Shown one piece after another: positions 1 through 52,083 of a DNA stretch of 64,000 bases (positions within the stretch are counted from its first letter, which is position 1; each line of letters opens with the position of its first letter). Both the position numbers and the translations under genes were made by a program. Source of the stretch: Streptantibioticus parmotrematis. Its GTDB lineage: Bacteria > Actinomycetota > Actinomycetes > Streptomycetales > Streptomycetaceae. The notes beneath the pieces were generated by a model. It did not search any database. It was given only the letters and a program-made list of their open reading frames with translations, and was not told the DNA's origin. The stretch is from NCBI RefSeq assembly GCF_019890615.1, contig NZ_JAINVZ010000002.1, positions 1 to 64,000 on the forward strand. Reading direction: 5' to 3'.

Positions 1-675
1 CTCCGCGATCCGCCGTTCCAGCTCGTCGGAGGGCGAGAGCAGCGCGCGGGCCATCGCCCGGTCGGCGTTGGCCAGCCCCCGCGCGACCCACGGCAGCACC
101 GGCCAGCCGACGATGACCAGGACGAGCATCAGGACGAACGTGAGGATGCCCCACGGCAGCCGGATCACGAAGTACAAGGCGTGCCGCCAGGCCACCGGAT
201 CCTTGATCGACGACCACAGCCAGCCGAAGAACCCCAGCCGCCCGGCCCGCAGCGGCCTCGGCTCGTCGATGCGCACACCCAGCAGCCCGCGCACCCGGCG
301 CCGCTCCAGCCGTCCCAGCCCCCGGCACCCGGCGAGCCCGCCCGCCAGCAGCGGCAGCCCGATCACCGTCACCGACAGCCCGGCGCCCAGCGACAGCAGC
401 ACCACCACGTAGAGGAAGCCGAACAGGTCCACGGGGAAATTGAGCAGTAGGTGCGCGACTTCCTTCCACGTCGCGCCGCTGAACGTCCGGGCGGGCGGCA
501 GCGGAGCGTCCCCCTGACCGGAGCGGCCGGACGGACCGGTGGCGAACGGGTCGGGGGCGGACGAGTCGGTGGCGGACGACCCCGCGCCGGACAGGCCCGC
601 GCCATCGAAGGCGCCGGAAGCGCCGGAAGCGCCGGAGCGGCCGGTGGAGCCGGCGGGAGTGGACGGGGTGTTCAT
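1..675 (-). CDS. Sensor histidine kinase-type protein, N-terminal sensor region (partial)
   Basis: Only the first 225 codons are present; the gene runs off the left edge. It starts at ATG (complement of 673-675). Residues 1 to about 55 are a low-complexity Ser/Gly/Ala/Asp segment. Hydrophobic segments follow, including LSLGAGLSVTVIGLPLLAGG, then a basic stretch (GLGRLERRRVRGLLGVR) and two more hydrophobic segments. This resembles the actinobacterial 'putative sensor' membrane domain found in front of DesK/NarL-type histidine kinases. No kinase core (H-box, N-box) is visible because it would lie outside the window. The gene is divergent from nuoA, and a two-component pair beside nuo2 is my recollection for Streptomyces. 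The alternative is another membrane protein with the same sensor domain. Confidence 0.7.
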   Translation of the reverse strand, partial: MNTPSTPAGSTGRSGASGASGAFDGAGLSGAGSSATDSSAPDPFATGPSGRSGQGDAPLPPARTFSGATWKEVAHLLLNFPVDLFGFLYVVVLLSLGAGLSVTVIGLPLLAGGLAGCRGLGRLERRRVRGLLGVRIDEPRPLRAGRLGFFGWLWSSIKDPVAWRHALYFVIRLPWGILTFVLMLVLVIVGWPVLPWVARGLANADRAMARALLSPSDELERRIAE

Positions 676-905
676 GCGCCCAGACTGCCCGGACGCGGGG
701 CCCCGGCGCCATGGGGAGCGTGGGGTGACGCGGGTGGGGTTTTCCCTACCGGCCGCCGCCCGCGGTTCCCCTCGTCCTCGCTCACGCAAGGCAGGCTCTA
801 GACTCCCGTGCGTACAGATCGTCTAAAGATTCGCCCAGGTGGCTGGACGGATACTGGGCGGACCCGACCGTATGCCGGTGGGGTCCCGACCGTGACGGAT
901 GAGGG

Positions 906-1328
906 GTGGACGTGCCGGAGTCGACCGTGGCAGCCGCGCGCGCCGAGAGCTACTTCGCCGAGAGCTACTTCCACACCTACTCGGTGGTGGGCCTGGTGGC
1001 GGTGGTCGGCGTGCTCTTCGTCGCCGTCGCCTTCGCGGCCGGTCACCTGCTGCGGCCGGTGGCGCCCACCCGCGAGAAAATGCTCACGTACGAATGCGGC
1101 GTCGACCCGGTCGGCGAGGGCTGGGCCCAGACCCAGATCCGCTACTACGTGTACGCGTTCCTCTACGTGATCTTCGCGGTGGACGCGATCTACCTGTTCC
1201 CCTGGGCCACGGTCTTCGCCGCGCCGGGATTCGGCGGCACGACTCTCGTCGAGATGTTCGTCTTCATCGGCTTCCTCGCCGTCGGCCTGCTGTACGCATG
1301 GAAGAAGGGTGTCCTGGAATGGACGTGA
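906..1328 (+). CDS. nuoA: NADH-quinone oxidoreductase subunit A (complex I, second copy type)
   Basis: Small membrane subunit of the proton-pumping arm of complex I. The 140-residue protein has three hydrophobic helices. It carries the NuoA-typical segment [16 protein letters not shown] (about residues 58-73), including the conserved loop Cys, and [20 protein letters not shown]. The start is uncertain: GTG at 906, or GTG at 912, which is better placed behind GAGGG (901-905). It is the first gene of a ten-gene operon, and its last 10 bases overlap nuoB. Confidence 0.9.
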
Positions 1329-2002
1329 ACCAGGACCACGCATCCGCCTCCGCCACGCCGGACCCGACCCCCGCGGCCGGGGCCACACCGGTGTACCTGC
1401 CCGAGCCCAAACGCCTGGGCACGCTGGCCCGGCTCGCCCCCGAGCCGATGAAGGTGGTCCTCAACTGGGGCCGCCGCTACAGCCTGTGGGTCTTCAACTT
1501 CGGCCTCGCCTGCTGCGCGATCGAGTTCATCGCCGCGTCGATGGCCCGGCACGACTTCATCCGGCTCGGCGTAATCCCCTTCGCGCCCGGCCCCCGGCAG
1601 GCCGATCTGATGATCGTCTCGGGCACCGTCACCGACAAGATGGCCCCGGCCGTCAAACGGCTGTACGAGCAGATGCCCGAGCCGAAGTACGTGATCTCGT
1701 TCGGCGCGTGCAGCAACTGCGGCGGCCCCTACTGGGACTCCTACGCGGTCACCAAGGGCGTCGACCAGATCATCCCGGTCGACGTCTACGTGCCCGGCTG
1801 CCCGCCGAGGCCCGAGGCGCTGCTCCAGGGCATCCTCAAGCTCCAGGAGAAGATCGCCCGCGAGTCGCTGGGCGAGCGGTACGGGAACGCCGCCGGGGCC
1901 ACGGACGCCGCCGCGGTCGACGCCGGTGCGCGTCCGTCCGCCGCCGCGCTCGGCAGCGGCCTGGTCGCCGCGCCGCCCACGCCGGGGGAGGAGCAGCGGT
2001 GA
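1319..2002 (+). CDS. nuoB: NADH-quinone oxidoreductase subunit B
   Basis: Hydrophilic subunit that carries Fe-S cluster N2, the last electron carrier before quinone. The protein has 227 residues. Cluster-ligand motifs are visible: the adjacent Cys pair in [11 protein letters not shown], Cys in [11 protein letters not shown], and Cys-Pro in [14 protein letters not shown]. The N-terminal 25 residues and an Ala-rich C-terminal tail of about 45 residues are extensions beyond the core. ATG overlaps the nuoA end, and its stop overlaps the nuoC start (GTGA). Its usual partner NuoD is not encoded in the operon. Confidence 0.95.
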
Positions 2003-2901
2003 ACGGCTTCGACCGGCTTCCGGACGCCGCCGCCGAGGTCTTCGGCGAGGGCGCCACGGCCGAGGAGGCGTACGGCCTGCTCACCGTGGACGTGCCCGCC
2101 GCGTCCTGGATCACGGCCCTCCAGGCCGCGCGCGACACGCTGGGCTGCACGTACTTCGACTGGCTGAGCGCGGTCGACGAGCCCGGCACGGGCTTCCGTA
2201 TCTGCGCCCACCTGGCCGCCCTGCCCGCCTCCGGCACGCCGCTGCGGCGCCTGGTGCTGCGCACCACCGTCCCGCACGAGGCGCCGGAACTGCCGACGGC
2301 CACCGGCGTCTACGCGGGCGCGGGCTGGCACGAGCGCGAGACGTACGAGATGTTCGGCGTCGCCTTCACCGGCCACCCGCACCTCGTTCCGCTGCTGCTG
2401 CCGGAGGGCTTCGAGGGGCATCCGCTGCGCAAGGACTTCGTGCTCGCCGCCCGGGTCGCCAAGGCGTGGCCCGGCGCCAAGGAGCCGGGGGAGTCCGACC
2501 ACGGCGGCCCCAAGCGCCGCCAGATGCTGCCGCCGGGCGTCCCCGACCCGAACGAGTGGGGACCGCTCAAGGGCCAGCTCCCGCCCGCGCCCGCCCGCCC
2601 GGCCCGTGGCGCCCGCGCGGCGGCGGCCCCCGGCGAACGCCCGGCCCGCCGCACCCGCAGCGTCAGCCAGGGTTCCGCGAGCCAGCAGGCGGCGGCAGGC
2701 GGCGAGGCCACGCCCGAGGCGGAGTCCACGCCGCCCGCACGCCCCACCCCGCGCAAGCGCCCGTCCGACGCCCCCTGGGCCCAGCAGACCGACCAACCGC
2801 AGACCGAGCAACCCCAGACCGAGCAACCGTCGCCCGAGGAGCCGAAGGCACCCGGTGCCGGGGACACCCCGCCCGAGACCGGAGAGGGAGGCGAAGCCTG
2901 A
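1999..2901 (+). CDS. nuoC: NADH-quinone oxidoreductase subunit C with long disordered tail
   Basis: The 30-kDa-type peripheral-arm subunit. The first 170 or so residues fit the family: [12 protein letters not shown], the signature region [18 protein letters not shown], and [14 protein letters not shown]. Residues from about 190 to 300 form an extension rich in Pro, Ala, Gln and Glu, with short repeats ([15 protein letters not shown] near residue 265), predicted to be disordered. Typical NuoC proteins end near the conserved core, so the tail roughly adds half again. GTG start overlaps the nuoB stop; the stop overlaps the nuoH ATG (TGATG). NuoD normally follows or is fused to NuoC but is absent here. 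Confidence 0.92.
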
Positions 2902-3863
2902 TGGACAGCACGCTCGACGTCGTCCTGCGGCTGGTCGCCGTCCTCGTCGTCTTCCTCGTCCTGCCACTGGTCGTCGGCCAGACCGAGCACAAGGTGATGG
3001 CCCACATGCAGGGCCGTCTCGGCCCGATGTACGCGGGCGGCTTCCACGGCTGGGCGCAACTCGTCGCCGACGGTGTGAAGTTCGCGCAGAAGGAGGACGT
3101 CGTCCCGGCCGCCGCCGACCGCCGCGTCTTCCAGCTCGCCCCCGCTGTCGCCCTGCTGCCGTACCTGCTCGTACTGATCGCGATCCCGGTGGGCCCGCAC
3201 GGCTTCGTCGGCGAAGCGGTCGACGCCGGGCTGTTCTTCGTGCTCGCCGTGATGGGCGTCGGCGTGCTCGGGTCGCTGATGGCGGGCTGGGCGTCGGCGA
3301 ACAAGTTCTCCCTGCTCGGCGGTGTGCGCACGGCCGCGCAGCTGATGGCGTACGAAGTGCCGATGCTGCTCACCGCCGCCTCGGTCGCGATGGCCGCCGG
3401 CACCGTCTCGCTGCCCGGCATCCTGGATGCCTTCCACTGGTGGTGGATCCCCTGGCAGATCGTCGGCGGGCTGGTCTTCTTCACCGCGGGCCTGGCCGAG
3501 CTGCAACGCCCGCCGTTCGACATGCCGGTGGCCGACTCCGAGATCATCTTCGGCGCCTACACCGAGTACACCGGGCTGCGCTTCGCGCTGTTCCTGCTCG
3601 CCGAGTACGCGGGCATCGTCGTGCTGTGCGCGCTGACCGCCGTGCTCTTCCTCGGCGGCTGGCACGGGCCGATGTCCGGCAGCCTCGGCTGGCTGTGGAC
3701 GCTGGTCAAGACCGGCCTGCTGGCGTTCGTCGTGATCTGGCTGCGGGTCAGCTACCCGCGGCTGCGCGAGGACCAGTTGCAGAAACTCGCCTGGACGATC
3801 CTGATCCCGCTCTCCCTCGCGCAGATCGCGCTCACCGGCGTCGTCAAGGTGGTGATCTCATGA
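2901..3863 (+). CDS. nuoH: NADH-quinone oxidoreductase subunit H
   Basis: Membrane subunit that links the quinone site to the proton-pumping arm. The 320-residue, multi-helix protein carries NuoH signatures: [14 protein letters not shown]-like [19 protein letters not shown] near residue 28, the [14 protein letters not shown] loop, AYEVPMLLT, and the acidic loop [23 protein letters not shown] overlaps the nuoC stop by one base, and the stop overlaps the nuoI ATG (ATGA), indicating translational coupling. Confidence 0.95.
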
Positions 3864-4516
3864 GTCCGGTCCCCGGCCGTGGCCTGGCCAAGGGCCTCGC
3901 CGTCACCCTGCGCACGATGACCCGGCGTTCGGTCACCGCGCAGTACCCCGACGCGCAGCCCGAACTGCCGCCGCGCACCCGTGGCGTCATCGGCCTGTTC
4001 GAGGAGAACTGCACGGTCTGCATGCTGTGCGCCCGCGAGTGCCCCGACTGGTGCATCTACATCGACTCCCACAAGGAGACGGTGCCGCCCGCCGCGCCCG
4101 GCGGACGCGAACGCAGCCGCAACGTCCTCGACCGCTTCGCCATCGACTTCGCGCTGTGCATGTACTGCGGCATCTGCATCGAGGTGTGCCCCTTCGACGC
4201 GCTGTTCTGGTCGCCGGAGTTCGAGTACGCGGAGACCGACATCCACGAGCTGACCCACGAGCGCGACAAGTTGCGCGAGTGGATGTGGACCGTCCCCGCG
4301 CCGCCCGCGCTGGACCCGGCGGCGGAGGATCCCAAGGAGATCGCCGCCGCCCGCAAGACCGCCGACAAGCTCGCCGCGGAACAGGCCGCGCAGGCACAGC
4401 AGGCAGAGCAGGCGCAGGCCGGTACGCAGGCGCAGGCCGACGACGGCACGCAGGCCGACTCGCCGCAGGCTCCCCAGGGCCCGCAGGCCGAACCCCCGCA
4501 GGAGGGCGACGCGTGA
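3860..4516 (+). CDS. nuoI: NADH-quinone oxidoreductase subunit I (2x[4Fe-4S])
   Basis: Ferredoxin-like subunit with two [4Fe-4S] clusters. Both ligand sets are visible: [12 protein letters not shown] (about residues 51-62) and [12 protein letters not shown] (about residues 100-111). After the core (about residue 150) there is a tail of about 65 residues rich in Ala, Gln and Pro, which is likely disordered. ATG overlaps the nuoH stop; the stop overlaps the nuoJ GTG. The retained NuoB and NuoI clusters suggest electrons still reach a membrane module even though the NADH-binding subunits are not encoded here. Confidence 0.95.
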
Positions 4517-5058
4517 ACCTCGCCGCCGCGCATCCGGGCTTCCTGTCCCCGACCGGGGTCGAGGTCGCCTTCGTCCTGGTCGGGCTCGCCACCCTCGGCG
4601 CCGCCCTGCTCACCGTGACGACCCGCCAACTGGTGCACGCCGCCTTGTGGCTGGTCGTCGCGCTCGGCGGGCTCGCCGTGGAGTACCTCCTGCTCACCGC
4701 GGAGTTCATCGCGTGGGTGCAGGTGCTGATCTACGTCGGTTCCGTGGTCGTCCTCCTGTTGTTCGGGCTGATGCTCACCAAGGCGCCCATCGGCCGCTCC
4801 CCGGACGCCGACTCGGGCAACCGCTGGGTGGCGCTCGCGGTGGCCGTCGCGGCGGCCGGGACCCTGGTCTGGGTGGTGGTGGACGCGTTCCGCACCACCT
4901 GGATCGACCTGGGCGGCCCGGCCCAGGGCTCGACCGAGGTCACCGGCGCGATCCTCTTCCGGCACTGGGTGCTGCCGTTCGAGGCGCTGTCGGTGCTGCT
5001 GCTCGCCGCGCTGGTCGGCGCGATCGTCCTGTCCAAGCGCACCGGCAGGGAGCGCTGA
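4513..5058 (+). CDS. nuoJ: NADH-quinone oxidoreductase subunit J
   Basis: Membrane subunit of 181 residues with about five hydrophobic helices. The family-typical segment [22 protein letters not shown] is followed by [26 protein letters not shown], which contains the conserved Gly/Val-rich helix. It starts at GTG 4513 inside the nuoI stop, and its stop shares one base with the nuoK ATG. Confidence 0.93.
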
Positions 5059-5486
5059 TGCACCTCGCCTATCCGGCCGTCCTCGCGGTCCTCCTGTTCT
5101 GCGTCGGCCTGTACGGCGTCCTCGCCAGGCGCAACGCGATCCTGGTGCTGATGTCCGTCGAGCTGATGCTCAACGCCGTCAACCTGAACCTCGTCGCGTT
5201 CGACGTCTGGCTCCGCGACACGCTGCACGCGGGCCAGGCGCTCACGCTCTTCACCATCACCATCGCCGCCGCCGAGATCGGCATCGGGCTGGCGATCGTG
5301 CTGCTCGTCCACCGCAACCGTGGGACCTCGGACGTGGACCAGCTCACCGACCTCGCCGACACCGGCACCGAACCCGGGCCCGTGCACTTCGGCGGCCCCG
5401 GCTCCGCCAGCATCGCACCCGGCACTGACAATCCCGATGAAACCACCGCCGACCAGGCACTTCCCGCCAGGGGGCAGACCGCGTGA
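5058..5486 (+). CDS. nuoK: NADH-quinone oxidoreductase subunit K with C-terminal extension
   Basis: Mrp-antiporter-like small membrane subunit. Three helices include the conserved glutamates in [17 protein letters not shown] and in [18 protein letters not shown]. NuoK is normally about 100 residues; here the protein has 142, because a polar tail of about 45 residues follows the last helix. ATG overlaps the nuoJ stop; the stop overlaps the nuoL GTG. Confidence 0.93.
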
Positions 5487-7519
5487 CCCTGACGACCCTC
5501 GCCGTCCTCGTCCCCCTGCTGCCCTTCCTCGGCGCCGTCGCGGGCCTGCTGCTCGGCCGCACCGCGCCCGGCTTCGTCCGGCCGCTCGCCGTGCTGCCGA
5601 CGCTGCTCGCGTTCGCCCTCGCGGTGACCGTCGCCGTCCGGCAGGGCACCGGCCCGGCCACCGACGCGGGAACGCGGCTGACCCCGACCGGCTCGGTCCC
5701 CGTCGACCTCGCCGTCCACCTCGACGGCTTCTCGGTACTGATCGCCGTCCTCGTCACGCTGGTCGCCTCCTGCGTGCAGATCTACTCCACCGGCTACCTG
5801 CGCGACGACCCGCGCTACTCCTCGTACGCCGCCCTGGTCTCGCTCTTCACCGCCGCCATGCTGCTGGTCGTCTACTCCGGCGACCTGATGGTGCTGCTGG
5901 TCGGCTGGGAGGTCATGGGCATCTGCTCGTACTTCCTGGTCGGCCACTACTGGGAGACGCCGGAGGCGCGGGCCGCCTCCCTGAAGGCGTTCCTGGTGAC
6001 CAAGCTCGGCGACGTGCCGTTCCTCATCGGCATCTTCGCGCTGGGCGCCGACGCCGGGACGTTCCGGATCAACGGCGTGCTGACCGCGGCCGCCTCCGGG
6101 CAGCTGCACCACCCCACCCTCATCGCGCTGCTGCTGCTCGGCGGCGTCGCGGGCAAGTCGGCGCAGTTCCCGCTGCACACCTGGCTGCCCGACGCGATGG
6201 CCGGTCCCACCCCGGTCTCCGCGCTGATCCACGCGGCCACCATGGTCGCCGCCGGCATCTACTTCGTCGCCCGGCTGCTGCCGGTCTTCGAGCTGTCCTC
6301 CGCCGCCCTGGCCGTCCTCGCCGCGATGGCCGCCGTGACGATGATCGGATCGGCGCTGTCGGCCCTCGCGCAGGACGACATCAAGCGGGTGCTCGCGTAC
6401 TCCACCATCGGCCAGCTCGGCTACATGGCGGGCGCCCTCGCCGTCGGCAACCGCTCGGCCGCCGTCTTCCACCTGCTCACCCACGGCGCGTTCAAGGCGC
6501 TGCTGTTCCTCGCCGCGGGCGTGGTCATCCACGCGGCGGGCACCAACTCGCTGGCCACCATGTCCCGCATGCGGGACTTGCGCTCCCGGGTGCCGGACGC
6601 CATGTGGACGATGGCCGTCGCGCTGGCCGCCCTCGCCGCCCTGCCGCCGTTCTCCGGCTTCTTCTCCAAGGAGTCGGTGCTGCGTGCCGCCGAGTACGCG
6701 GCCGAGGGCCACCAGGCCCACGTGCCGTCGGCGGTCGGCTGGACCGTACTGGTCGCGGGACTGCTCACCGCCCTGCTGACCGCCGCCTACGCGACGCGCC
6801 TGTTCCTGCTCGCGGGTTCACCTCCGCAGACGCGGAGAGCACGTCAGCAGCGCGATGGCGAGACGAGCGTACCGGCCCCCACTGACAACCACTTCCGCAC
6901 GCCGGTCGTGATGAACGCCGTCCTGTGGCTGCTCGCGATCCCCGCGCTCGCCCTCGGCGTGACCGCGGGCAAGCTGCCGCAGTGGTTCGACGGCACTTCA
7001 CTGGCGCCCACCCTCGCCACCTCCGTCCTCGGCGTCGGCCTCGCGCTGGTCGGCGTGCTGGTCACGTACGCCGCCTGGCGGCACACCGAGACGCGCGCCA
7101 ACCGGGTGCCGATCGGCGCGGTCGTCGCGCCCGACAGCGTCGAGCCCGCCGCCACCGAGGCCGCCGCGATCGCCGCGCACCCCCAGGTGTACGGCGACAT
7201 CGCCGGCGCGCCCGACCCCGCCGACCCCGGACGCCTGCTGCTCGGGCCGCTGCACCGGTACGCCGTGCACGGCTTCGGCCTCGACGTGCTCTACAGCAAG
7301 GCGTTCGTCCGCCCGGTGCTGGCCGCCGCGGGCCTGGTGCGGTTCCTGGACCGCGAGGTCGTCGAGACCTACGTGCGCACCGCGGGCGGCGTCCCCCGGC
7401 TGCTGGGCCTGCTGGTGCGCCGCGCCCAGACCGGCAACGTGCAGACCTACCTCAGCGTGCTGCTCGGCGGCTCGGTGGTCCTGGCCGTCCTCGCCGTCCT
7501 CGTCGCCAGCGGAGCGTGA
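5483..7519 (+). CDS. nuoL: NADH-quinone oxidoreductase subunit L
   Basis: Large antiporter-like proton-pumping subunit of 678 residues, the usual size. Visible motifs are [18 protein letters not shown] (conserved Glu of TM5), [31 protein letters not shown] (key Lys and His), and [20 protein letters not shown] polar insert near residues 450-470 precedes the C-terminal helices and the lateral-helix region. GTG 5483 overlaps the nuoK stop. Three bases separate its stop from nuoM. Confidence 0.96.
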
Positions 7520-7522
7520 GCC

Positions 7523-9082
7523 GTGAACCACACCGTCCTTCAGGTCCTGCTCCTGGCCGTCGTCGTCCTGCCGCTGCTCGGCGCCCTCGGCGCGCTGCTG
7601 CCCGCGCCCCCCGGACTCAAGGGCCGCGACCCCGAGCAGGCGGTGCTGCGCCACGGCGTCCTGGTGACCGGCGCCGTCCTCGCGCTGTCGATCGCGCTGG
7701 CCGTCGGCTTCGACCGCGCCCAGCCGTCCCGTATGCAGGGCACCACCGACGTCAGCTGGATCCCGGCGCTGCACATCCGCCTCCACCTCGGCGTGGACGG
7801 CGTGTCGTTGCCGCTGATCGTGCTGACCGCGCTGCTCACCTTCCTGTGCGCCCTGCACGCGTACTACAAGATGCCGGAAGGCCCGACGGCCAAGGCGTTC
7901 GTCGCGCTGATCCTGCTGCTCGAAGGCGGCACGCTCGCCTCGTTCGCCGTGCTGGACCTGATCCTGTTCTTCCTGGCGTTCGAGATGGTCCTCATCCCGA
8001 TGTACTTCCTCATCGGACGCTGGGGAGGCGACGGCAGGGAACGCGCCGCCTTCCGCTTCATCCTCTACACGCTGCTCGGCTCCGTCGTCATGCTGCTCGG
8101 CCTCCTGCTCGTCGGGTTCAAGGCGGGCACCTTCGACATGGTGACACTCGCCACTGACAAGGGATCGGGCCTCAGCCACAGCACGCAGATCATCGCCGCC
8201 CTCGCCATCGGCCTGGGCCTGGCGGTCAAGGCCCCGATGTGGCCGCTGCACAGCTGGCTGCCGGACGCCCACACTGCCGCGCCGACCACCGGCTCGGTCC
8301 TGCTCGCCGGTGTACTGCTGAAAATGGGCACCTACGGCTTCGTCCGCATCGTGCTGCCGATCACCCCTTACGGCGCGCACACCTTCGCGCCGTATCTGGC
8401 GGCGTTCGCGGTCGTCGGCATCCTCTACGGCTCGCTGGCCTGCCTCGCGCTGGCCCGCCAGGGCGCCGAGGGCGACCTGAAGCGGCTCATCGCGTACTCC
8501 TCGGTCGGCCACATGGGCTTCGTACTGCTCGGCATCGCCACCCTCACCCCGACCGGCGTCAACGGCGCGCTGTTCGCCAACGTCGCCCACGGCCTCATCA
8601 CCGGCCTGCTGTTCTTCCTGGTCGGCGCGGTCAAGGAGCGCTACGGCACGACCGACCTCGACCGGCTCTCCGGAGCCACCGGCGCCGCGCTGTACGGCGC
8701 CGCGCCACGCCTGGGCGGCCTGCTGGCGTTCGGCGCGGTCGCCTCCCTCGGACTGCCGGGGCTGGCCGGGTTCTGGGGCGAGATGCTGTCGATGTTCGGC
8801 GCCTTCCGGCCCGCCGCCGGGCTCGATCGCGGCGCGTATCTGACGTATATGACGCTCGCCGCCTTCGGCACGCTGCTGACCGCCGGCTATCTGCTCGTCG
8901 TCGTGCGGCGCGTATGCATGGGCGAGCGCGACGCCGAGGCCCGGGTGCTCACCGACGTGCACGGCTACGAGTTCGCCGCCTGGACGCCGCTGGTCGCCCT
9001 CACCGTCCTGGCCGGGCTGTGGCCCGCCGCCCTGCTCGGGCTGACCAACCCGGCCGTACGCACCCTCCTCGGAGGCAGCTGA
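7523..9082 (+). CDS. nuoM: NADH-quinone oxidoreductase subunit M
   Basis: Second antiporter-like subunit, 519 residues. Motifs include FFLAFEMVLIPMYFLIGRWGG (conserved Glu), KAPMWPLHSWLPDAHTAAPTTGSVLLAGVLLKMGTYG-type region (Lys at about 237), and EGDLKRLIAYSSVGHMGFV. It begins at GTG 7523, directly after nuoL, and its stop overlaps the nuoN ATG. Confidence 0.96.
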   Translation: MNHTVLQVLLLAVVVLPLLGALGALLPAPPGLKGRDPEQAVLRHGVLVTGAVLALSIALAVGFDRAQPSRMQGTTDVSWIPALHIRLHLGVDGVSLPLIVLTALLTFLCALHAYYKMPEGPTAKAFVALILLLEGGTLASFAVLDLILFFLAFEMVLIPMYFLIGRWGGDGRERAAFRFILYTLLGSVVMLLGLLLVGFKAGTFDMVTLATDKGSGLSHSTQIIAALAIGLGLAVKAPMWPLHSWLPDAHTAAPTTGSVLLAGVLLKMGTYGFVRIVLPITPYGAHTFAPYLAAFAVVGILYGSLACLALARQGAEGDLKRLIAYSSVGHMGFVLLGIATLTPTGVNGALFANVAHGLITGLLFFLVGAVKERYGTTDLDRLSGATGAALYGAAPRLGGLLAFGAVASLGLPGLAGFWGEMLSMFGAFRPAAGLDRGAYLTYMTLAAFGTLLTAGYLLVVVRRVCMGERDAEARVLTDVHGYEFAAWTPLVALTVLAGLWPAALLGLTNPAVRTLLGGS

Positions 9083-10668
9083 TGACCGAACTCGCCTCCG
9101 GCGTGGTGCAGTCCGTCGACTGGATCGCCGTCGCACCGCCCGCGATCACCGCGGTCGTCGCGCTGGCCGTCCTCGTCGCCGACCTGTTCGTGCCCGCCGC
9201 GCGCAAGCCCGTGCTCGGCTGGGTGTCGGTCGGCGGCCTGGTGCTCGCCCTGCTGTCGCTGCTACCGCTGACCAGCGGTGACCGGTCCACGTTCTGCGTC
9301 GTGGGCCGGGCGGGCCAGTGCAGTTACGTGGCCGATCACTTCACCGTCACCGTGCAGCTGCTGGTGCTCGGCGGCGCGCTGCTGACCGCGTTGCTGTCGC
9401 TGCACAACGCGGACGACCTGCCGCCCGGCGAGTTCTGGTTCCTGCTGCTGTCGTCCGCCGCGGGCGCCGCGCTGCTGCCCGCTTCCCGGGACCTGGCCAC
9501 CCTCGTCGTCGCCCTGGAGGTCACCTCACTGCCGTCGTTCGCCCTGGTCGGGCTGCGGCGCGGGGACCGGATGTCCGGCGAGGCGGCGCTGAAGTTCTTC
9601 CTGTCCTCCGTGACGGCGACCGCGGTCACACTGCTCGGCGTCAGCTTCGTGTACGCGGCGACCGGCTCCCTGCACCTGAACGCCGTCGCCGTGGGCCTGG
9701 CGCACGGCACCGGGCAGCTGACGGTGCTGGCCAGGACCGGCGTGATCCTCACTCTGGTCGGCTTCGCCTTCAAGCTGGCCGTCGCGCCCTTCCACTTCTG
9801 GGTGCCGGACACCTACGCGGGCGCGCCGCTGCCGGTCGCCGCCTACCTGTCGGTGGTCGGCAAGGCCGCCGGGTTCTCCGGGCTCATCCTGGTGTCGGTC
9901 ATCGCGTTCCGCCCGTACGCGGACGTGTGGGGGCCCGCGGTCGCCGTGCTCGCGGCGCTCACCATGAGCGTCGGCAACGTCGCCGCCCTGCGCCAGCGCA
10001 CCGGCCACCCGCGCAGCGCGGTACGGCTGCTGGCCTGGTCGTCGATCGGGCAGGCGGGCTACCTGCTGGTGCCGCTCGCCGCCGCCGGGTACGCCGCCGA
10101 CCCCGCGCACGAGGTCGGCACCACGGTCGCGTACGCGCTGATGTACGCGGTGGTCAACCTCGGCGCGTTCGCGGTGGTCGCCCTGGTCGCCGGGGCGCGG
10201 CGGATCGAGGACTTCCGCGGGCTGTACGCGACACGTCCCGCGGCGGCGCTCGCGCTGGCGTTCTTCCTGCTGTGCCTGGCGGGGCTGCCGCCCGGCGTGA
10301 TCGGGCTGTTCGCCAAGGTGGCGGTCTTCTCCACGGCGGTGGACGCGGGCCTGGGCTGGCTGGCGGTCGTCATGGCCGTCAATGTGGTGATCGCCCTGTA
10401 CTACTACCTGCGCTGGACGGCGCTGCTGTTCGCGCGGCCCGCCACCCGGACGGCGGATTCCGGCGCGGCGGAGGCCGCCGAGGCCGCCGAGGGCGTACCC
10501 GCCGCGTCCGACGTGTCCGGTGCGTCCGGAGCCGTCGCCGTGCCGCAGGCGCCCGGCCGGGTGCCGGTCTCCCTGACGGCCGCGATCGCCCTGGCCGCGC
10601 TCGTCGGCGTCGCCCTGTCGGGCGCACCGCAGCTCGTCCTGCGCTTCGCCTCCGGCAGCCTCTTCTGA
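9082..10668 (+). CDS. nuoN: NADH-quinone oxidoreductase subunit N
   Basis: Third antiporter-like subunit, 528 residues, ending the operon. Motifs are VVALEVTSLPSFALVGLRRGDRMSGEAALKFFL, FKLAVAPFHFWVPDTYAGAPLPVAAYLSVVGKAAGF-type region, and VRLLAWSSIGQAGYLLVPLAA. Near the C-terminus (about residues 455-490) is a hydrophilic Ala/Glu/Ser-rich insert between helices. The stop codon is the first TGA of a degenerate 20-bp repeat array. Confidence 0.95.
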   Translation: MTELASGVVQSVDWIAVAPPAITAVVALAVLVADLFVPAARKPVLGWVSVGGLVLALLSLLPLTSGDRSTFCVVGRAGQCSYVADHFTVTVQLLVLGGALLTALLSLHNADDLPPGEFWFLLLSSAAGAALLPASRDLATLVVALEVTSLPSFALVGLRRGDRMSGEAALKFFLSSVTATAVTLLGVSFVYAATGSLHLNAVAVGLAHGTGQLTVLARTGVILTLVGFAFKLAVAPFHFWVPDTYAGAPLPVAAYLSVVGKAAGFSGLILVSVIAFRPYADVWGPAVAVLAALTMSVGNVAALRQRTGHPRSAVRLLAWSSIGQAGYLLVPLAAAGYAADPAHEVGTTVAYALMYAVVNLGAFAVVALVAGARRIEDFRGLYATRPAAALALAFFLLCLAGLPPGVIGLFAKVAVFSTAVDAGLGWLAVVMAVNVVIALYYYLRWTALLFARPATRTADSGAAEAAEAAEGVPAASDVSGASGAVAVPQAPGRVPVSLTAAIALAALVGVALSGAPQLVLRFASGSLF

Positions 10669-10800
10669 GCCCAGCCGTCGTCTGCTGAGCCCAGCGGCCC
10701 GCCCGCTGCGCCCGGCCGTCGCCCTGCTGAGCGCCACCGGCGACCGCTGAGCCGGGCGGTCGCCCCCTGACCGCCGTCGCCGCTGAGCCTCCGCGACCGC
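10666..10800 (+). repeat. Degenerate ~20-bp tandem repeat starting at the nuoN stop codon
   Basis: Units beginning TGAGC(C/G) or a variant start at 10666, 10686, 10707 (TGC), 10728, 10748, 10768 and 10784, giving spacings of 20, 21, 21, 20, 20 and 16. The first two units share TGAGCCCAGC exactly; later units drift. The first TGA is the nuoN stop. No gene is visible between here and htpX. Confidence 0.6.
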
Positions 10801-10966
10801 TCGCCGAGCCCCGCCGCCGGTTGCCCGCCGCCCGCCCCGGCTCCCCCGCCCAGCGTGACCGGGCGGCCACGGGGCGGGAACCCCAGCCCTCCGCGTGGCG
10901 TTGACCAGTACAGGAGGGTCCACTGGAAGGTGGAAGAGGATCCCGCGTACGTCTGGGAGGGCGACC

Positions 10967-11827
10967 GTGCACCGCCGGCACAACGGGCTGAAGACCGCCG
11001 TACTGCTCGGAGCGCTGTCCGCGATCATCCTGATCGTCGGCAGCTTCTTCGGCCGTACCGGACTCCTCGTCGCCCTGGTGATCGCGCTCGGCACGAACGC
11101 GTACGCGTACTGGAACAGCGACAAGATGGCGCTGCGCGCGATGCGGGCCCGCCCGGTCAGCGAGTTCGAGGCGCCGGCGCTCTACCGGATCGTGCGCGAG
11201 CTGTCGACCACCGCCCGTCAGCCCATGCCCCGGCTCTACATATCGCCGACCGAGGCCCCCAACGCGTTCGCCACCGGCCGCAACCCGCGCAACGCCGCCG
11301 TCTGCTGCACCGAGGGCATCCTGCGGATGCTGGACGAGCGCGAGCTGCGCGGCGTCCTGGGCCACGAGCTGAGCCACGTCTACAACCGCGACATCCTCAT
11401 CTCGTCGGTCGCGGGCGCGCTCGCGTCCGTGGTGATGTTCCTGGTCAACTTCGCCTGGCTGATACCGATCGGCCGCTCGGAGGACGACGAGGGCCCTGGC
11501 ATCATCGGGCTGCTGATGATGATGGTGCTCGGCCCGCTGGCCGCCGGGCTGATCCAGCTCGCGGTCAGCCGCTCCCGGGAGTACGAGGCCGACGCCTCCG
11601 GTGCCCGGCTGACCGGTGACCCGCTGGCGCTCGCCTCGGCGCTGCGCAAGCTCGACGCGGGCACCCAGCGGCTCCCGCTGCCCCCCGAGCCGCGCCTGGA
11701 GACGACCAGTCACCTGATGATCGCGAACCCGTTCCGGGCGGCCGACGCCTCGAAGCTGTTCTCCACCCACCCGCCGATGGCGGACCGCATCTCGCGGTTG
11801 GAAGAAATGGCAGGTTGGCGACCATGA
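10967..11827 (+). CDS. htpX: Membrane zinc metalloprotease HtpX
   Basis: M48-family membrane protease for quality control of damaged membrane proteins. The 286-residue protein has N-terminal helices, then the zinc site HELSH (about residues 133-137) and the third ligand Glu at about 205 in SREYEAD. A further helix pair lies between them. GTG 10967 is chosen because GGGAGG sits 6 bases upstream and the product begins MHRRHNGLK as in other actinobacteria; an earlier in-frame start would add 24 residues of unlikely sequence. The stop overlaps the yccF ATG (ATGA). Confidence 0.92.
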
Positions 11828-12216
11828 GGACGATTCTCAACGTCATCTGGCTGGTCCTGTGCGGCCTGTGGATGGCCATCGGGTACGCGGTCGCCGGGAT
11901 CGTGATGTTCGTGCTGATCGTGACGATCCCGTTCGGCATCGCCGCGTTCCGCATCGCGGGCTACGCCCTGTGGCCGTTCGGCCGCACGACGGTCGAGCGA
12001 CGCGACGCGGGCGTGGGCTCGCTCATAGGCAACGTGATCTGGCTGGTCCTCGCGGGCATCTGGCTGGCCATCGGCCATGTCGTCACCGGCATCGCGCTGT
12101 GCTGCACGATCATCGGCATCCCGCTCGGCATCGCCAACTTCAAGCTGATCCCGCTGTCCCTGATGCCGCTGGGCCGCGAGATCGTGCCGACGGACGCGCC
12201 GTTCGCGACCCGCTGA
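11824..12216 (+). CDS. yccF: YccF-domain inner membrane protein
   Basis: A 130-residue protein made of two similar halves, each with the YccF signature: [16 protein letters not shown] near residue 5 and [16 protein letters not shown] near residue 64. Each half is followed by a TIPFGIA- or IGIPLGIA-type helix. Function is unknown. Translational coupling to htpX (ATGA overlap) suggests a linked membrane role. It ends in a degenerate repeat array. Confidence 0.88.
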
Positions 12217-12324
12217 CGCCTGAACGGAGCGGACGCGTGAACGGTGGCCCGTTGACCGGGCGGTCTGAACGGCGGCCCGCCTGAAGTGGCGACCTGAACG
12301 GCGGCTCGCTGACCGCGCGGGTGG
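12214..12324 (+). repeat. Degenerate ~15-bp tandem repeat starting at the yccF stop codon
   Basis: TGA occurs at 12214 (the yccF stop), 12221, 12238, 12253, 12266, 12282, 12295 and 12310. Several units read TGAACGG(C/T)GGC(C/T)CG. Spacing is 7 to 17, mostly 13-16. This fills most of the gap to the yajQ stop at 12387. Confidence 0.55.
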
Positions 12325-12386
12325 CGGCGCCCGGCGGGGCCGACGCCGCCGGGCGCGTGCGCCGGGCGGCGGCGGGCCGCCCCGGG

Positions 12387-12875
12387 TCAGCGGTAGTTGA
12401 CGAACTGGAGGGCGAAGTCGAGGTCCTTGCCCTTCAGCAGCGCCTGCACGGCCTGCAGGTCGTCGCGGCTCTTGGAGGTGACGCGCAGCTCCTCACCCTG
12501 GACCTGCGCCTTGACGCCCTTGGGGCCCTCGTCCCGGATGATCTTGGCGACCTTCTTGGCGTTCTCCTGGGAGATGCCCTCCTGGATGGAGGCGAAGATC
12601 TTGTACTCCTTGCCGGAGGCCTGCGGCTCGCCCGCGTCCAGGGCCTTCAGCGAGATGCCGCGCTTGACGAGCTTGGTCTCGAAGACGTCGAGGATCGCCT
12701 TGACCCGCTCCTCGGAGTTGGCCCGCATCTCGATCTTCTCGCCCGACCAGTCGATCGAGGCGCCCACGTTCTTGAAGTCGTAGCGCTGCGCGATCTCCCG
12801 CCCCGCCTGGTTGAGGGCGTTGTCGACCTCTTGCCGCTCGACCTTCGAGACGATGTCGAAACTGGAGTCGGCCAT
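12387..12875 (-). CDS. YajQ family nucleotide-binding protein
   Basis: A 162-residue cytosolic protein matching the YajQ family along its length: [20 protein letters not shown] at the start, [30 protein letters not shown], and an end in [11 protein letters not shown]. Family members bind nucleotides, and a Xanthomonas homologue binds cyclic di-GMP; the role here is inferred only. ATG is at the complement of 12873-12875, behind AGGAGCC. It converges on yccF. Confidence 0.93.
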
Positions 12876-13095
12876 GTTCAGTTGGCTCCTTGTGTGAGGT
12901 GTGTCAGGGTGCGCCGGATGCGTCGCGACTGCGTCGGGCGGTACGGCAGGGCCGCGCGCCCACAGCCGCAAGCCTAGCCACCGCGGACCGCCCCGGCGCA
13001 GATCAACCGGGTGGCGGACCACCCCCTGGCATCAGGTATCGTTTACGTCGTCGCCACGGAGCGCCGCACTGAGCGGTCCCGGGGTGATTTTTCCC

Positions 13096-13177
<82 letters not shown>

Positions 13178-13187
13178 CATGGAAAAC

Positions 13188-13233
13188 AAGACCCCGTGTG
13201 ACCTGCTAGATCTAGCAGGTCACACGGGGTCTT
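13188..13233. terminator. Perfect 46-bp palindrome terminator after tRNA-Tyr
   Basis: Arms 13188-13210 and 13211-13233 are perfectly complementary over 23 bp with no spacer (centre AGATCT). It starts 10 nt after the tRNA and has no T-tract. It is symmetrical, so it could also stop transcription from the minus-strand gene ending at 13394. Confidence 0.85.
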
Positions 13234-13393
13234 CTCGTTGGTGGGGCAGTCGTGCCGCCGGGCGGTGGGCCTTGCGCGCCGCGCCGATCAGGCGGTTCAC
13301 GCGCCTCCCGGATGCCCGGGGCGGCTGGGCGCCGCCGTCGTGGCCGGGCGGGTGCACAGCCTCCCGGGGGAGCAGTGGCGCCGCTGCGGGCCC

Positions 13394-46191: not shown

Positions 46192-48294
<2,103 letters not shown>

Positions 48295-48331
48295 GGGACT
48301 CCGTTCTCGGAGACCCTGGCAAGCCTTAGGC

Positions 48332-48360
48332 TTGACGGCAGGCAGTCCGGGGCATACCGC
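48332..48360 (+). promoter_or_regulatory. Possible tuf-specific promoter
   Basis: TTGACG (48332-48337), 17-bp spacer, TACCGC (48355-48360) in the 222-bp fusA-tuf gap. Streptomyces tuf1 is known to have its own promoter in this gap in addition to operon read-through. Confidence 0.5.
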
Positions 48361-48516
48361 CGCAAACCGTAAGGTTGTGGCGGGTGTCCCGGCCGCCGGC
48401 ACCTAAATCCGCGGGTTGGTCACAGCAAGGCCCTTCGGGGTCCTCGCCAACCCGGCAACGATCACCTGGCGGCATACGGCGTATGGCGCACAGACTCAGT
48501 CCACAGGAGGACCCCA

Positions 48517-49710
<1,194 letters not shown>

Positions 49711-49729
49711 CCTCGCGCTGACGCTGGTC

Positions 49730-49767
49730 GAGACCCCGTTCACCCCTTCGAGGGTGAGCGGGGTCTC
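49730..49767. terminator. Terminator after tuf
   Basis: Stem of about 16 pairs (from 49730 to 49767, one T-G wobble) with a short CTTCG-type loop. Confidence 0.85.
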
Positions 49768-49787
49768 GCCTTTCGGCTGCGGTTCTC

Positions 49788-50080
49788 TAGGGGGTGCGGG
49801 GGCTGTTCTTTTGAGGAGTGCGGGGGCTGTTCTTTCAAGGGGCGCGGGGGGTGTTCTTTTAGGGGCGCGGGGAACTGCGCGCGCAACCGACCACCGGTCG
49901 GTGGCCGCCCACCGACCGCAGCAACGACGGCGATTGGCCCCCTGCCGCCCGGTATGTGGCTGGTCGCGCAGTTCCCCGCGCCCCTGAAGGAAAACAGCCC
50001 CCGCGGTCCATCAAAGAACGTCCCCCGCGGCCCTTCAAAGAACATCCCCGCAGCCCCGAAGGGCGAAGGGGCGGGTGCGG
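49788..50080. repeat. Nested inverted/tandem repeat element between tuf and rpsJ
   Basis: Perfect 21-bp arms (49861-49881 and 49965-49985, core GCGCGGGGAACTGCGCG) are 83 bp apart. Outward from each arm run about three ~24-bp direct repeats, unit (A/G)(G/T)GCGGGGGCTGTTCTTT on the left (49792-49860) and its complement type AAAGAAC(A/G)TCCCC on the right (49986-50060). Inside is a smaller palindrome ACCGACCACCGGTCGGT. The 21-bp core belongs to a palindrome family I recall as widely dispersed in Streptomyces genomes. No ORF is supported. Confidence 0.8.
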
Positions 50081-50439
50081 TCGTCAACCTCGCGGGGGCC
50101 CGATTAGCCCGAGTGGCCAACGGTATGGCACACTGTCCAGGTTGCTCGGTTGAGTGCCGATGCTGCGCGCCTCCCGTCGGGAGGACCGGAAGCGAGTCCC
50201 ACAGTACTCGTCGCCCCTCATCAGGGGCGGACGTACGGGAATCTTCCGGGAAGCGTCGCGCGGGGCTCACCAGGCGCCCGGTGGATGTCTTCCCCAACCT
50301 CCTGACAAGGGAATTCCGCATGCGGATTTTTCCTGACGGGGGCGCGACACGCCCGACCGCGTGGGTCAGCGAGAAGCGGCAGGGAAGCGCCATTCGCCGG
50401 AGCCCAGAGCGTTACGAGAGACAGGACTACGGAGTAGCC
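50081..50439 (+). promoter_or_regulatory. S10 operon leader region
   Basis: No gene is supported. Possible structure includes GCCTCCCGTCGGGAGG (50169-50184) and TCCGCATGCGGATTTTT (50316-50332), the latter resembling an intrinsic attenuator. The shared leader element is at 50345-50369. I could not place the promoter with confidence. Confidence 0.5.
50345..50369 (+). promoter_or_regulatory. 25-nt leader element shared with the str operon
   Basis: Second copy of the block at 45197-45221, 23 of 25 bases identical, here 70 nt before the rpsJ ATG. The stem is shorter because one pairing base differs (GGTCAG instead of GGTCGG). Confidence 0.75.
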
Positions 50440-50748
50440 ATGGCGGGACAGAAGATCCGCATCCGGCTCAAGGCCTACGACCACGAGGTCATCGACTCCT
50501 CGGCGAAGAAGATCGTCGAGACGGTGACCCGCACTGGTGCGCAGGTCGCGGGCCCGGTGCCGCTGCCCACTGAGAAGAACGTGTACTGCGTCATCAAGTC
50601 GCCGCACAAGTACAAGGACGCGCGCGAGCACTTCGAGATGCGTACGCACAAGCGCCTCATCGACATCCTCGACCCCACGCCGAAGACGGTTGACTCGCTG
50701 ATGCGTCTCGACCTGCCGGCCGGCGTCGACATCGAGATCAAGCTCTGA
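50440..50748 (+). CDS. rpsJ: 30S ribosomal protein S10
   Basis: The 102-residue protein sits in the 30S head and also acts in antitermination (NusE). Sequence spans [20 protein letters not shown] through [23 protein letters not shown] 50440 follows GGAG; the frame is open upstream (ATG 50321) but that extension is not S10-like. First gene of the S10 operon. Confidence 0.97.
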
Positions 50749-50761
50749 GGTGACGCGCGAG

Positions 50762-51424
50762 ATGGCCAAGCAGCAGAAGACTGCCAAGCAGATCAAGGGC
50801 GTCCTGGGCGAGAAGCTCGGCATGACCCAGGTCTGGGACGAGAACAACCGTGTCGTCCCGGTGACCGTGGTCAAGGCCGGCCCCTGTGTCGTCACCCAGG
50901 TCCGCACGGGCGACGCCGACGGCTACGAAGCCGTCCAGATCGCCTTCGGCGAGATCGACCCGCGCAAGGTGAACAAGCCCCTCAAGGGCCACTTCGCCAA
51001 GGCCGACGTCACCCCGCGCCGCCACCTGGTGGAGCTGCGGACCTCCGACGCCAGCGAGTACACGCTCGGCCAGGAGATCACCGCCGCCGCCTTCGAGGCC
51101 GGCGTCAAGGTCGACGTGACCGGCAAGAGCAAGGGCAAGGGCTTCGCCGGTGTCATGAAGCGTCACAACTTCAAGGGCCTCGGCGCCGGACACGGCACCC
51201 AGCGCAAGCACCGCTCGCCCGGTTCCATCGGCGGCTGCGCCACCCCGGGCCGCGTGTTCAAGGGCCTGCGCATGGCGGGTCGCATGGGCAACGAGCGGGT
51301 CACCACCCAGAACCTGACCGTCCACGCCGTTGACGCGGAGAAGGGTCTGCTGCTCATCAAGGGCGCGGTTCCCGGTCCGAACGGCGGCCTCGTCCTGGTC
51401 CGTACCGCGGCCAAGGGGGCCTGA
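50762..51424 (+). CDS. rplC: 50S ribosomal protein L3
   Basis: Early-assembly 23S rRNA-binding protein, 220 residues: [61 protein letters not shown]. The N-terminus [13 protein letters not shown] appears to contain a duplicated AKQ unit, slightly longer than usual. ATG 50762 is chosen over GTG 50750 because GAGGTGA is 8 bases upstream. Confidence 0.96.
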
Positions 51425-51432
51425 GGTAACCC

Positions 51433-52083
51433 ATGAGCACCATTGACATCCTTTCGCCGGCCGGCGACAAGGCCGGGACCGTCGAGCTCCCCACGGAGAT
51501 CTTCGACGCGAAGGTCAGCGTTCCGCTGATCCACCAGGTCGTCGTCGCCCAGCTGGCCGCTGCCCGTCAGGGCACGCACAAGACCAAGACCCGTGGCGAG
51601 GTCCGCGGCGGTGGCAAGAAGCCGTACCGCCAGAAGGGCACCGGCCGCGCCCGTCAGGGCTCGACCCGCGCGCCGCAGTTCGCCGGTGGTGGCGTCGTGC
51701 ACGGTCCCGTGCCGCGTGACTACTCGCAGCGGACCCCCAAGAAGATGATCAAGGCCGCCCTGCGTGGCGCCCTGACCGACCGCGCGCGTCACAGCCGCAT
51801 CCACGTCGTGTCCGGCGTCGTCGAGGGTTCCGCCCCGTCGACCAAGGACGCCAAGGCGCTGCTGGGCAAGATCAGCGAGCGCAAGAACGTCCTGCTGGTC
51901 GTCGAGCGTGCCGACGAGCTGTCGTGGCTTTCCGCCCGCAACCTGCCCCAGGTCCACATCCTGGAGGCCGGTCAGCTGAACGCCTACGACGTGCTCGTCT
52001 CCGACGACGTGGTCTTCACCAAGGACGCCTTCGACCGCTTCACCGGTAACGGCGCCGCCGAGACCGAAGGGAGCGCCGCCTGA
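51433..52083 (+). CDS. rplD: 50S ribosomal protein L4
   Basis: Lines the exit tunnel; in E. coli it represses the S10 operon. The 216-residue protein has [20 protein letters not shown], the tunnel-loop region [20 protein letters not shown] and [19 protein letters not shown]. Its stop shares a base with the rplW ATG (TGATG). Confidence 0.97.

Follow-up and report, generated by a model that had tools for sequence, protein, structure and literature searches.

Layout of the tuf-rpsJ intergenic region

The stretch of DNA that was analysed (called 'the window') comprises 64,000 nucleotides of Streptantibioticus parmotrematis (contig NZ_JAINVZ010000002.1, positions 1 to 64,000). The genes for elongation factor Tu (tuf) and ribosomal protein S10 (rpsJ) were separated in it by 729 bp, a spacing given in the initial annotation and confirmed here from the ORFs and the Pfam-identified neighbours. 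The gap contained a probable tuf terminator hairpin (16-nt arms with 15 Watson-Crick pairs and one G-T, by eye), a nested repeat element, and a conserved rpsJ promoter/leader block, the nested element lying entirely upstream of the latter (Table 1). The nested arrangement that had been described previously, with 24-nt direct repeats around perfect 21-nt inverted arms, was borne out by repeat analysis, the third right-hand repeat being degenerate.

Table 1. Features of the tuf-rpsJ region (positions refer to the window)
Feature	Position	Strand	Basis and remarks
tuf, elongation factor Tu, upstream neighbour	48517..49710	+	ORF; Pfam PF00009, PF03143, PF03144
Probable tuf terminator hairpin	49730..49767	+	Within inverted repeat I3; similar hairpin in the sister species (G001)
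Left outer array, three 24-nt direct repeats	49791..49862	+	Repeat analysis; local to the site
Left 21-nt arm, REP-like unit reading inwards	49861..49881	+	Repeat and core search
Doublet interior, differs between copies	49882..49964	+	13-copy alignment; interiors of other genomes differ
Right 21-nt arm, matching the left arm perfectly in inverted orientation	49965..49985	-	Repeat and core search
Right outer array of inverted 24-nt repeats, two of them clear (49993-50040) and the third degenerate	49993..50062	-	Repeat analysis
rpsJ (S10) promoter/leader block, conserved in relatives	50101..50439	+	Alignment with the corresponding gap in 11 relatives
rpsJ, ribosomal protein S10, downstream neighbour	50440..50748	+	Pfam PF00338

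From arm to arm (49861-49985) the element formed a 125-bp inverted doublet, the arms reading AGGGGCGCGGGGAACTGCGCG and enclosing a 17-nt core (49865-49881 on the forward and 49965-49981 on the reverse strand). These 21 nt were the longest perfect inverted repeat in 49785-50066, the maximum in 200 first-order random sequences being 13. In the left array (49791-49814, 49815-49838 and 49839-49862) the second and third repeats were 88% and 83% identical to the first, respectively; the two clear right-hand repeats (49993-50016 and 50017-50040) were 83% alike, and the third reached to about 50062 (partly by eye). The 24-nt flanking unit is local to the tuf-rpsJ site: a search with 17 nt of it, allowing up to two mismatches, gave four matches in the genome, three of which were the left-hand copies, and the reversed control gave three. 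Copying of the 24-nt units from arm to arm through the hairpin was unsupported, since left units were more alike among themselves (identity 0.79-0.88) than across the arms (0.67-0.79). An Rfam scan of 48000-51500 returned nothing at the gathering score.

The whole nested segment, folded as single-stranded RNA, was predicted to form one long hairpin (z = -12.1; none of 200 shuffles as good), and the 126-nt element alone, folded as DNA, gave z = -7.7. The predicted folding of single units barely surpassed that of shuffled letters (-22.6 versus -20.7 kcal/mol, 60/171). No conserved fold of the interior is claimed, because the RNAalifold covariation term was slightly unfavourable (+0.72); two-sided changes occurred in 5 of 36 pairs.

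Copy number, taxonomic range and forms of the repeat family

A count of the core over the genome, proposed in the initial annotation together with a check for strand and position bias, gave 32 exact copies of the 17-nt core in 7.4 Mb (14 forward and 18 reverse) and no copy of the reversed pattern. One exact core (L016) was inside a called gene. A covariance model built from 13 copies produced 28 hits at 15 places in the same genome, 13 of them matched on both strands because the element closely resembles its own reverse complement; 12 of the 13 source copies came from this genome, and therefore match by construction.

Across 200 genomes of the same taxonomic family, the core was found in 120, at 0-478 copies each (80 genomes with none, 30 with 1-9, 34 with 10-49, 43 with 50-199 and 13 with at least 200). 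Class-wide, 21 of 296 genomes had matches: 17 of the 28 that belong to the same family, and 4 of the 268 that do not, the latter with one match each, about the level of the reversed control (three genomes with one). A collection of named genomes contained at least 120 core-bearing stretches, several of those listed coming from one and the same genome; the 80 titles among the matches listed were Streptomyces (75), Kitasatospora (2), Actinacidiphila (2) and Streptacidiphilus (1), all of which we take to be Streptomycetaceae. Carriage by phages was unsupported, with no exact 20-mer match to the element in viral contigs, and three Streptomyces plasmids had partial matches only (25-35% of the query, E up to 1e-5).

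The basic unit measured about 43 nt, AGGGGCGCGGGGAACTGCGCG being followed approximately by ACCAGCCACCACCGGCCCGCAG, the sequence in which the single-unit consensus ran inwards in the 120 loci listed from named genomes. Copies occurred as single units, tandem arrays and inverted doublets. Among 160 usable arms in these 120 loci, 120 stood alone with no inner partner, 22 had an outer-arm partner only and 18 were in doublets. Doublets with exact arms at a spacing of 65-95, the criterion used, numbered 10 in the S. parmotrematis genome, 81 in G031 (among 201 cores), 63 in G004, 31 in G007 and 17 in G134; by the same criterion G199 and G029 had none, despite 330 and 264 cores, respectively. The perfection of the arms is partly a selection effect, the sites having been picked by exact arm matches. 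Interiors, compared by eye among the copies listed, were similar within a genome and different between genomes, even within one genus (in genus g7, G031 differed from G007 and G134), and a doublet of Actinacidiphila alni (L172) had an interior of the G031 type.

The repeat family was described nowhere in the portions of the literature covered by our search; subscription papers, figures and supplements lay outside its scope, so the family is possibly known to others. Core strings retrieved a single unrelated clam study containing one 13-letter string, and the family was absent from the available portions of PMC3733652, PMC2817692, PMC3765725, PMC1525189, PMC1590033, PMC3116915, PMC4681348, PMC8780764 and PMC8269248.

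Position of the copies relative to genes

Gene calls came from a codon-usage script of our own and not from annotation; the script recovered the expected ribosomal genes of the window. After exclusion of 22 arms at locus ends, the 120 loci listed contained 118 sites, 110 intergenic and 8 in ORFs. The intergenic sites fell in 50 convergent, 52 codirectional and 8 divergent gaps, and the baseline consisted of 475 gaps of at least 60 bp from the same loci (77 convergent, 267 codirectional and 131 divergent). Against this baseline, which includes the element gaps themselves, convergent gaps were enriched (OR 4.3, p 3.7e-10) and divergent gaps depleted (OR 0.21, p 1.5e-6). At 38 of the 52 codirectional sites, the copy was closer to the upstream stop than to the downstream start. 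In a further 28 loci of three kb each (16 from the S. parmotrematis genome and 12 from four other genomes), there were 13 convergent, 14 codirectional and no divergent sites (n = 27 intergenic) and 2 genic ones, but the baseline contained a high share of convergent gaps as well (15 of 47), many of which were element gaps. Copies of the element thus lie mostly behind genes, with a bias to gene 3' ends.

In the 120 loci listed, 11 of 167 arm ends had a short T run, as did 6 of 30 in the loci of the S. parmotrematis genome and 1 of 34 in the other doublet loci. A T-tract terminator was rejected as an account of most copies, which are not canonical terminators of this type because T runs follow so few arm ends; a minority could qualify.

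The tuf-rpsJ interval in related genomes

The initial annotation had suggested that the element marks an insertion hotspot in the tuf-rpsJ gap or the scar of an excision, citing S. coelicolor as a species with dozens of genes between tuf1 and rpsJ (SCO4663-SCO4700). Stretches around the gap were fetched from 60 of 199 matching genomes, which were selected by hand to cover various copy numbers and gap sizes and are not a random sample. The gap was below 1 kb in 19 of them (437-834 bp) and 1.2-19.2 kb in 37 (21 at 1-5 kb and 16 at 5-20 kb), and four had no tuf within the 15-20 kb taken; in genome G070, the tuf and rpsJ matches were separated by about 38 kb. The interval is a variable slot among relatives. 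In one genome of another genus (L032, G034), the slot contained an unrelated tandem repeat in which a unit resembling GGTCTCGGGAGCTTGCCCCCAA recurred about three times (by eye).

Exact cores were present in the tuf-rpsJ stretch of five of the 60 genomes, namely G001 (the sister species, with three cores), G004, G007 (without tuf in the stretch), G031 and G062, and the gap of G077 contained one core copy with two mismatches. Leaving G001 aside, no core occurred in 18 compact gaps (0.03 expected from genome density), and eight occurred in the other 41 genomes (four carriers), compared with 6.9 expected from each genome's own density. The core being no commoner in insertion-bearing gaps than density predicts, the hotspot or scar reading is unsupported at this site in the genomes sampled. 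No excision is visible at tuf-rpsJ either, because the sister species has copies at the same tuf spot and no gene-scale insertion there. The element was nevertheless neither absent from all insertion-bearing genomes nor random elsewhere: a few carriers had it at background density, and its copies elsewhere are 3'-biased. In G004 and G031, which belong to other genera, half-elements lay about 100 bp behind tuf, past what looks by eye like the tuf hairpin, which fits the 3'-end habit.

Changes between sister species

Eleven element sites of the S. parmotrematis genome were compared with G001 (L003, L005, L007, L009, L011, L013, L014, L020/L023 taken as one, L025, L027 and L030). For L001, L016, L017 and L029 no counterpart was matched in G001, and L022 lay inside a segment absent from it. 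Element copies were present in both species at all 11 sites, a comparison in which absent copies were hardly detectable because 10 of the sites came from G001 stretches picked around its exact cores; the sole site reached by map position, L003, was shared, with degenerate arms in G001. Neither an insertion event nor a clean empty site was recognised among the 11. G001 also had a single unit of its own near a synteny break.

The number of units differed at several shared sites. One doublet in S. parmotrematis corresponded to three units in G001, some of them incomplete, at both L009 and L030, and an extra half unit was found in G001 at L027. At the tuf site the copies were rearranged relative to G001, and the 24-nt arrays were longer in S. 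parmotrematis. Three further observations concern individual stretches. In G001, at about 1470-1540 of L251, just upstream of an element, the 3' hairpin half and T tract of the upstream gene appeared duplicated, the duplicated half resembling the 24-nt units of the tuf site. At L029 the right arm was degenerate, and the sequence beyond it may be an insertion sequence. In the window, positions 13383-64000 were collinear with the compared G001 stretch and positions 1-13382 lacked any collinear match of 300 bp or more, placing a synteny break at about 13.4 kb.

Gene-scale differences were found at two element sites. On contig 21 (L263:2250-7469), 5.2 kb between two element copies were missing in G001, where the junction lay in one element copy, so that a deletion or a gain by recombination between copies is possible; judged by eye, the proteins encoded in the segment resemble a MerR regulator, a PP2C-type phosphatase and an asparagine synthase. 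On contig 8, about 1.55 kb were missing in G001, with the break at an element. About 73 kb of collinear comparison elsewhere contained no indel above 500 bp between matched blocks. The resulting contrast (2 of 11 element sites versus none of an assumed 85 gaps with an indel, p 0.012) is a rough one and no more than suggestive. The part of the hotspot idea in which copies act as breakpoints thus gained some support, although not at tuf-rpsJ.

Alternative explanations

RAYT transposases explain REP repeats. The occurrence of inverted doublets alongside singles and tandem clusters, which the available part of PMC3116915 describes for REPINs, would suit a genuine REPIN whose mobiliser, a RAYT tyrosine transposase, has since been lost from this strain, but the searches for such an enzyme argue the other way and we consider this origin highly improbable. 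The RAYT model NF047646 exceeded its cut-off in none of the 200 genomes of the family, with 22 weak matches below it (6 of 14 control genomes matched, one over the cut-off). The Y1 transposase family PF01797 had no match in the S. parmotrematis genome and matches in 66 of the 200, with no link to copy number (Mann-Whitney p 0.46 over the 200 genomes; at least 50 copies in 19 of 66 Y1 genomes versus 37 of 134 others, Fisher p 0.87). Neither GTAG nor CGTC, one of which at one end is the rule for most REPs according to the available part of PMC3733652, occurred in the majority consensus of flank plus inward part over 167 arms. Perfect terminal inverted arms together with divergent interiors might instead point to a MITE-like origin, in which a DDE-type insertion sequence that has the same 21-bp arms moved the element. 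This we regard as unlikely, given that three quarters of the usable arms (120 of 160) stood alone, that inspection of 15 flanks by eye revealed no target duplication, and that no transposase was among the Pfam families matching at least two of the neighbour proteins scanned (100 of 189; 134 families, none matching more than four proteins, single-protein families not all being listed).

The element may also act as a signal at RNA 3' ends, either as a U-poor terminator working in both directions or as a hairpin that protects mRNA. Such a signal would have been copied behind genes and retained by selection, and would insulate tuf from rpsJ at this site. The bias to convergent gaps and gene 3' ends and the very stable predicted hairpin would agree with such a role, as would the transcript 3' ends of S. 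avermitilis, which according to the available part of PMC8780764 show GC-rich palindromes and in most cases lack a U tail. The rarity of T runs, the hairpin that tuf already has, the absence of the exact core from all 18 compact gaps outside the genus and from 80 of the 200 genomes speak against it, leaving the role possible but doubtful; it is compatible with a REP-like origin and does not exclude it. An insertion hotspot or excision scar between tuf and rpsJ, with the element as its mark, is hardly plausible: the variable size of the gap and the indels at two other element sites favour the idea, and the core's lack of enrichment in insertion-bearing gaps and the insertion-free copies of the sister species contradict it.

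Discussion

The element is probably one copy of a REP-like dispersed repeat family of Streptomycetaceae, with a mobiliser that either was not a RAYT or has been lost, with copies tolerated at gene 3' ends and remodelled by recombination. The traits observed are dispersal, patchy copy number, occurrence as singles, tandems and doublets, 3'-end placement, and a number of units at one site that differs between sister species. The locus itself is a REP-like doublet within a local tandem array, resembling a REP/REPIN repeat in form and placement, with neither a RAYT over the cut-off in 200 genomes nor the end tags in its consensus. Most likely the tuf-rpsJ copy has little function beyond that of a structured non-coding 3' spacer.

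Several known systems resemble the family in part. The REP and BIME sequences of enterobacteria and pseudomonads share with it short GC-rich palindromic units, many extragenic copies (here 110 of 118 sites in the 120 loci listed were intergenic), 3'-end placement, and tandem and inverted clusters. Unlike them, the element has a different sequence, a consensus without GTAG or CGTC and no RAYT over the cut-off, and it was confined to Streptomycetaceae among the genomes searched, bar single control-level matches. REPINs are likewise inverted doublets of two units around a variable interior with a single predicted hairpin, the doublet being taken as the replicating unit (PMC3116915, available part), whereas in the present family single units dominate the 120 loci listed and no RAYT exceeded the cut-off in 200 genomes. 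MITEs are similarly small and non-coding with terminal inverted arms, but many copies of the element are half-elements, and neither a cognate insertion sequence (100 neighbour proteins) nor a target duplication (15 flanks) was recognised. Intrinsic bidirectional terminators likewise form stable hairpins of high GC content, located behind genes and in the gaps of convergent pairs; in contrast, the element belongs to a dispersed sequence family with fixed arms, and T tracts seldom follow its stem.

We envisage that two units of about 43 nt facing each other around an interior make up a doublet, which as a single strand (DNA, or RNA if read through) would fold into a long hairpin. The family would have multiplied replicatively in several lineages, presumably by means of a mobiliser other than a RAYT, or one now lost, and copies would persist mainly behind genes because no promoter is harmed there. 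Slipped replication and recombination would then add or remove tandem units, such as the 24-nt arrays beside the tuf-rpsJ element, and recombination may occasionally delete the sequence between two copies. A more speculative thought is that this REP-like family never used a RAYT, its arms being recognised and copied by an unrelated enzyme or by recombination on the hairpin; such recognition could account for arms that are constant across genera around interiors that are genome-specific.

As a REP-like family with no RAYT over the cut-off in 200 genomes, ranging from 0 to 478 copies within one bacterial family, these repeats offer a natural contrast in which to find another route of spreading. 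The family would give Streptomyces genomics a common cause for many of the GC-rich hairpins behind genes, and would also explain some of the gene gains and losses between sister species.
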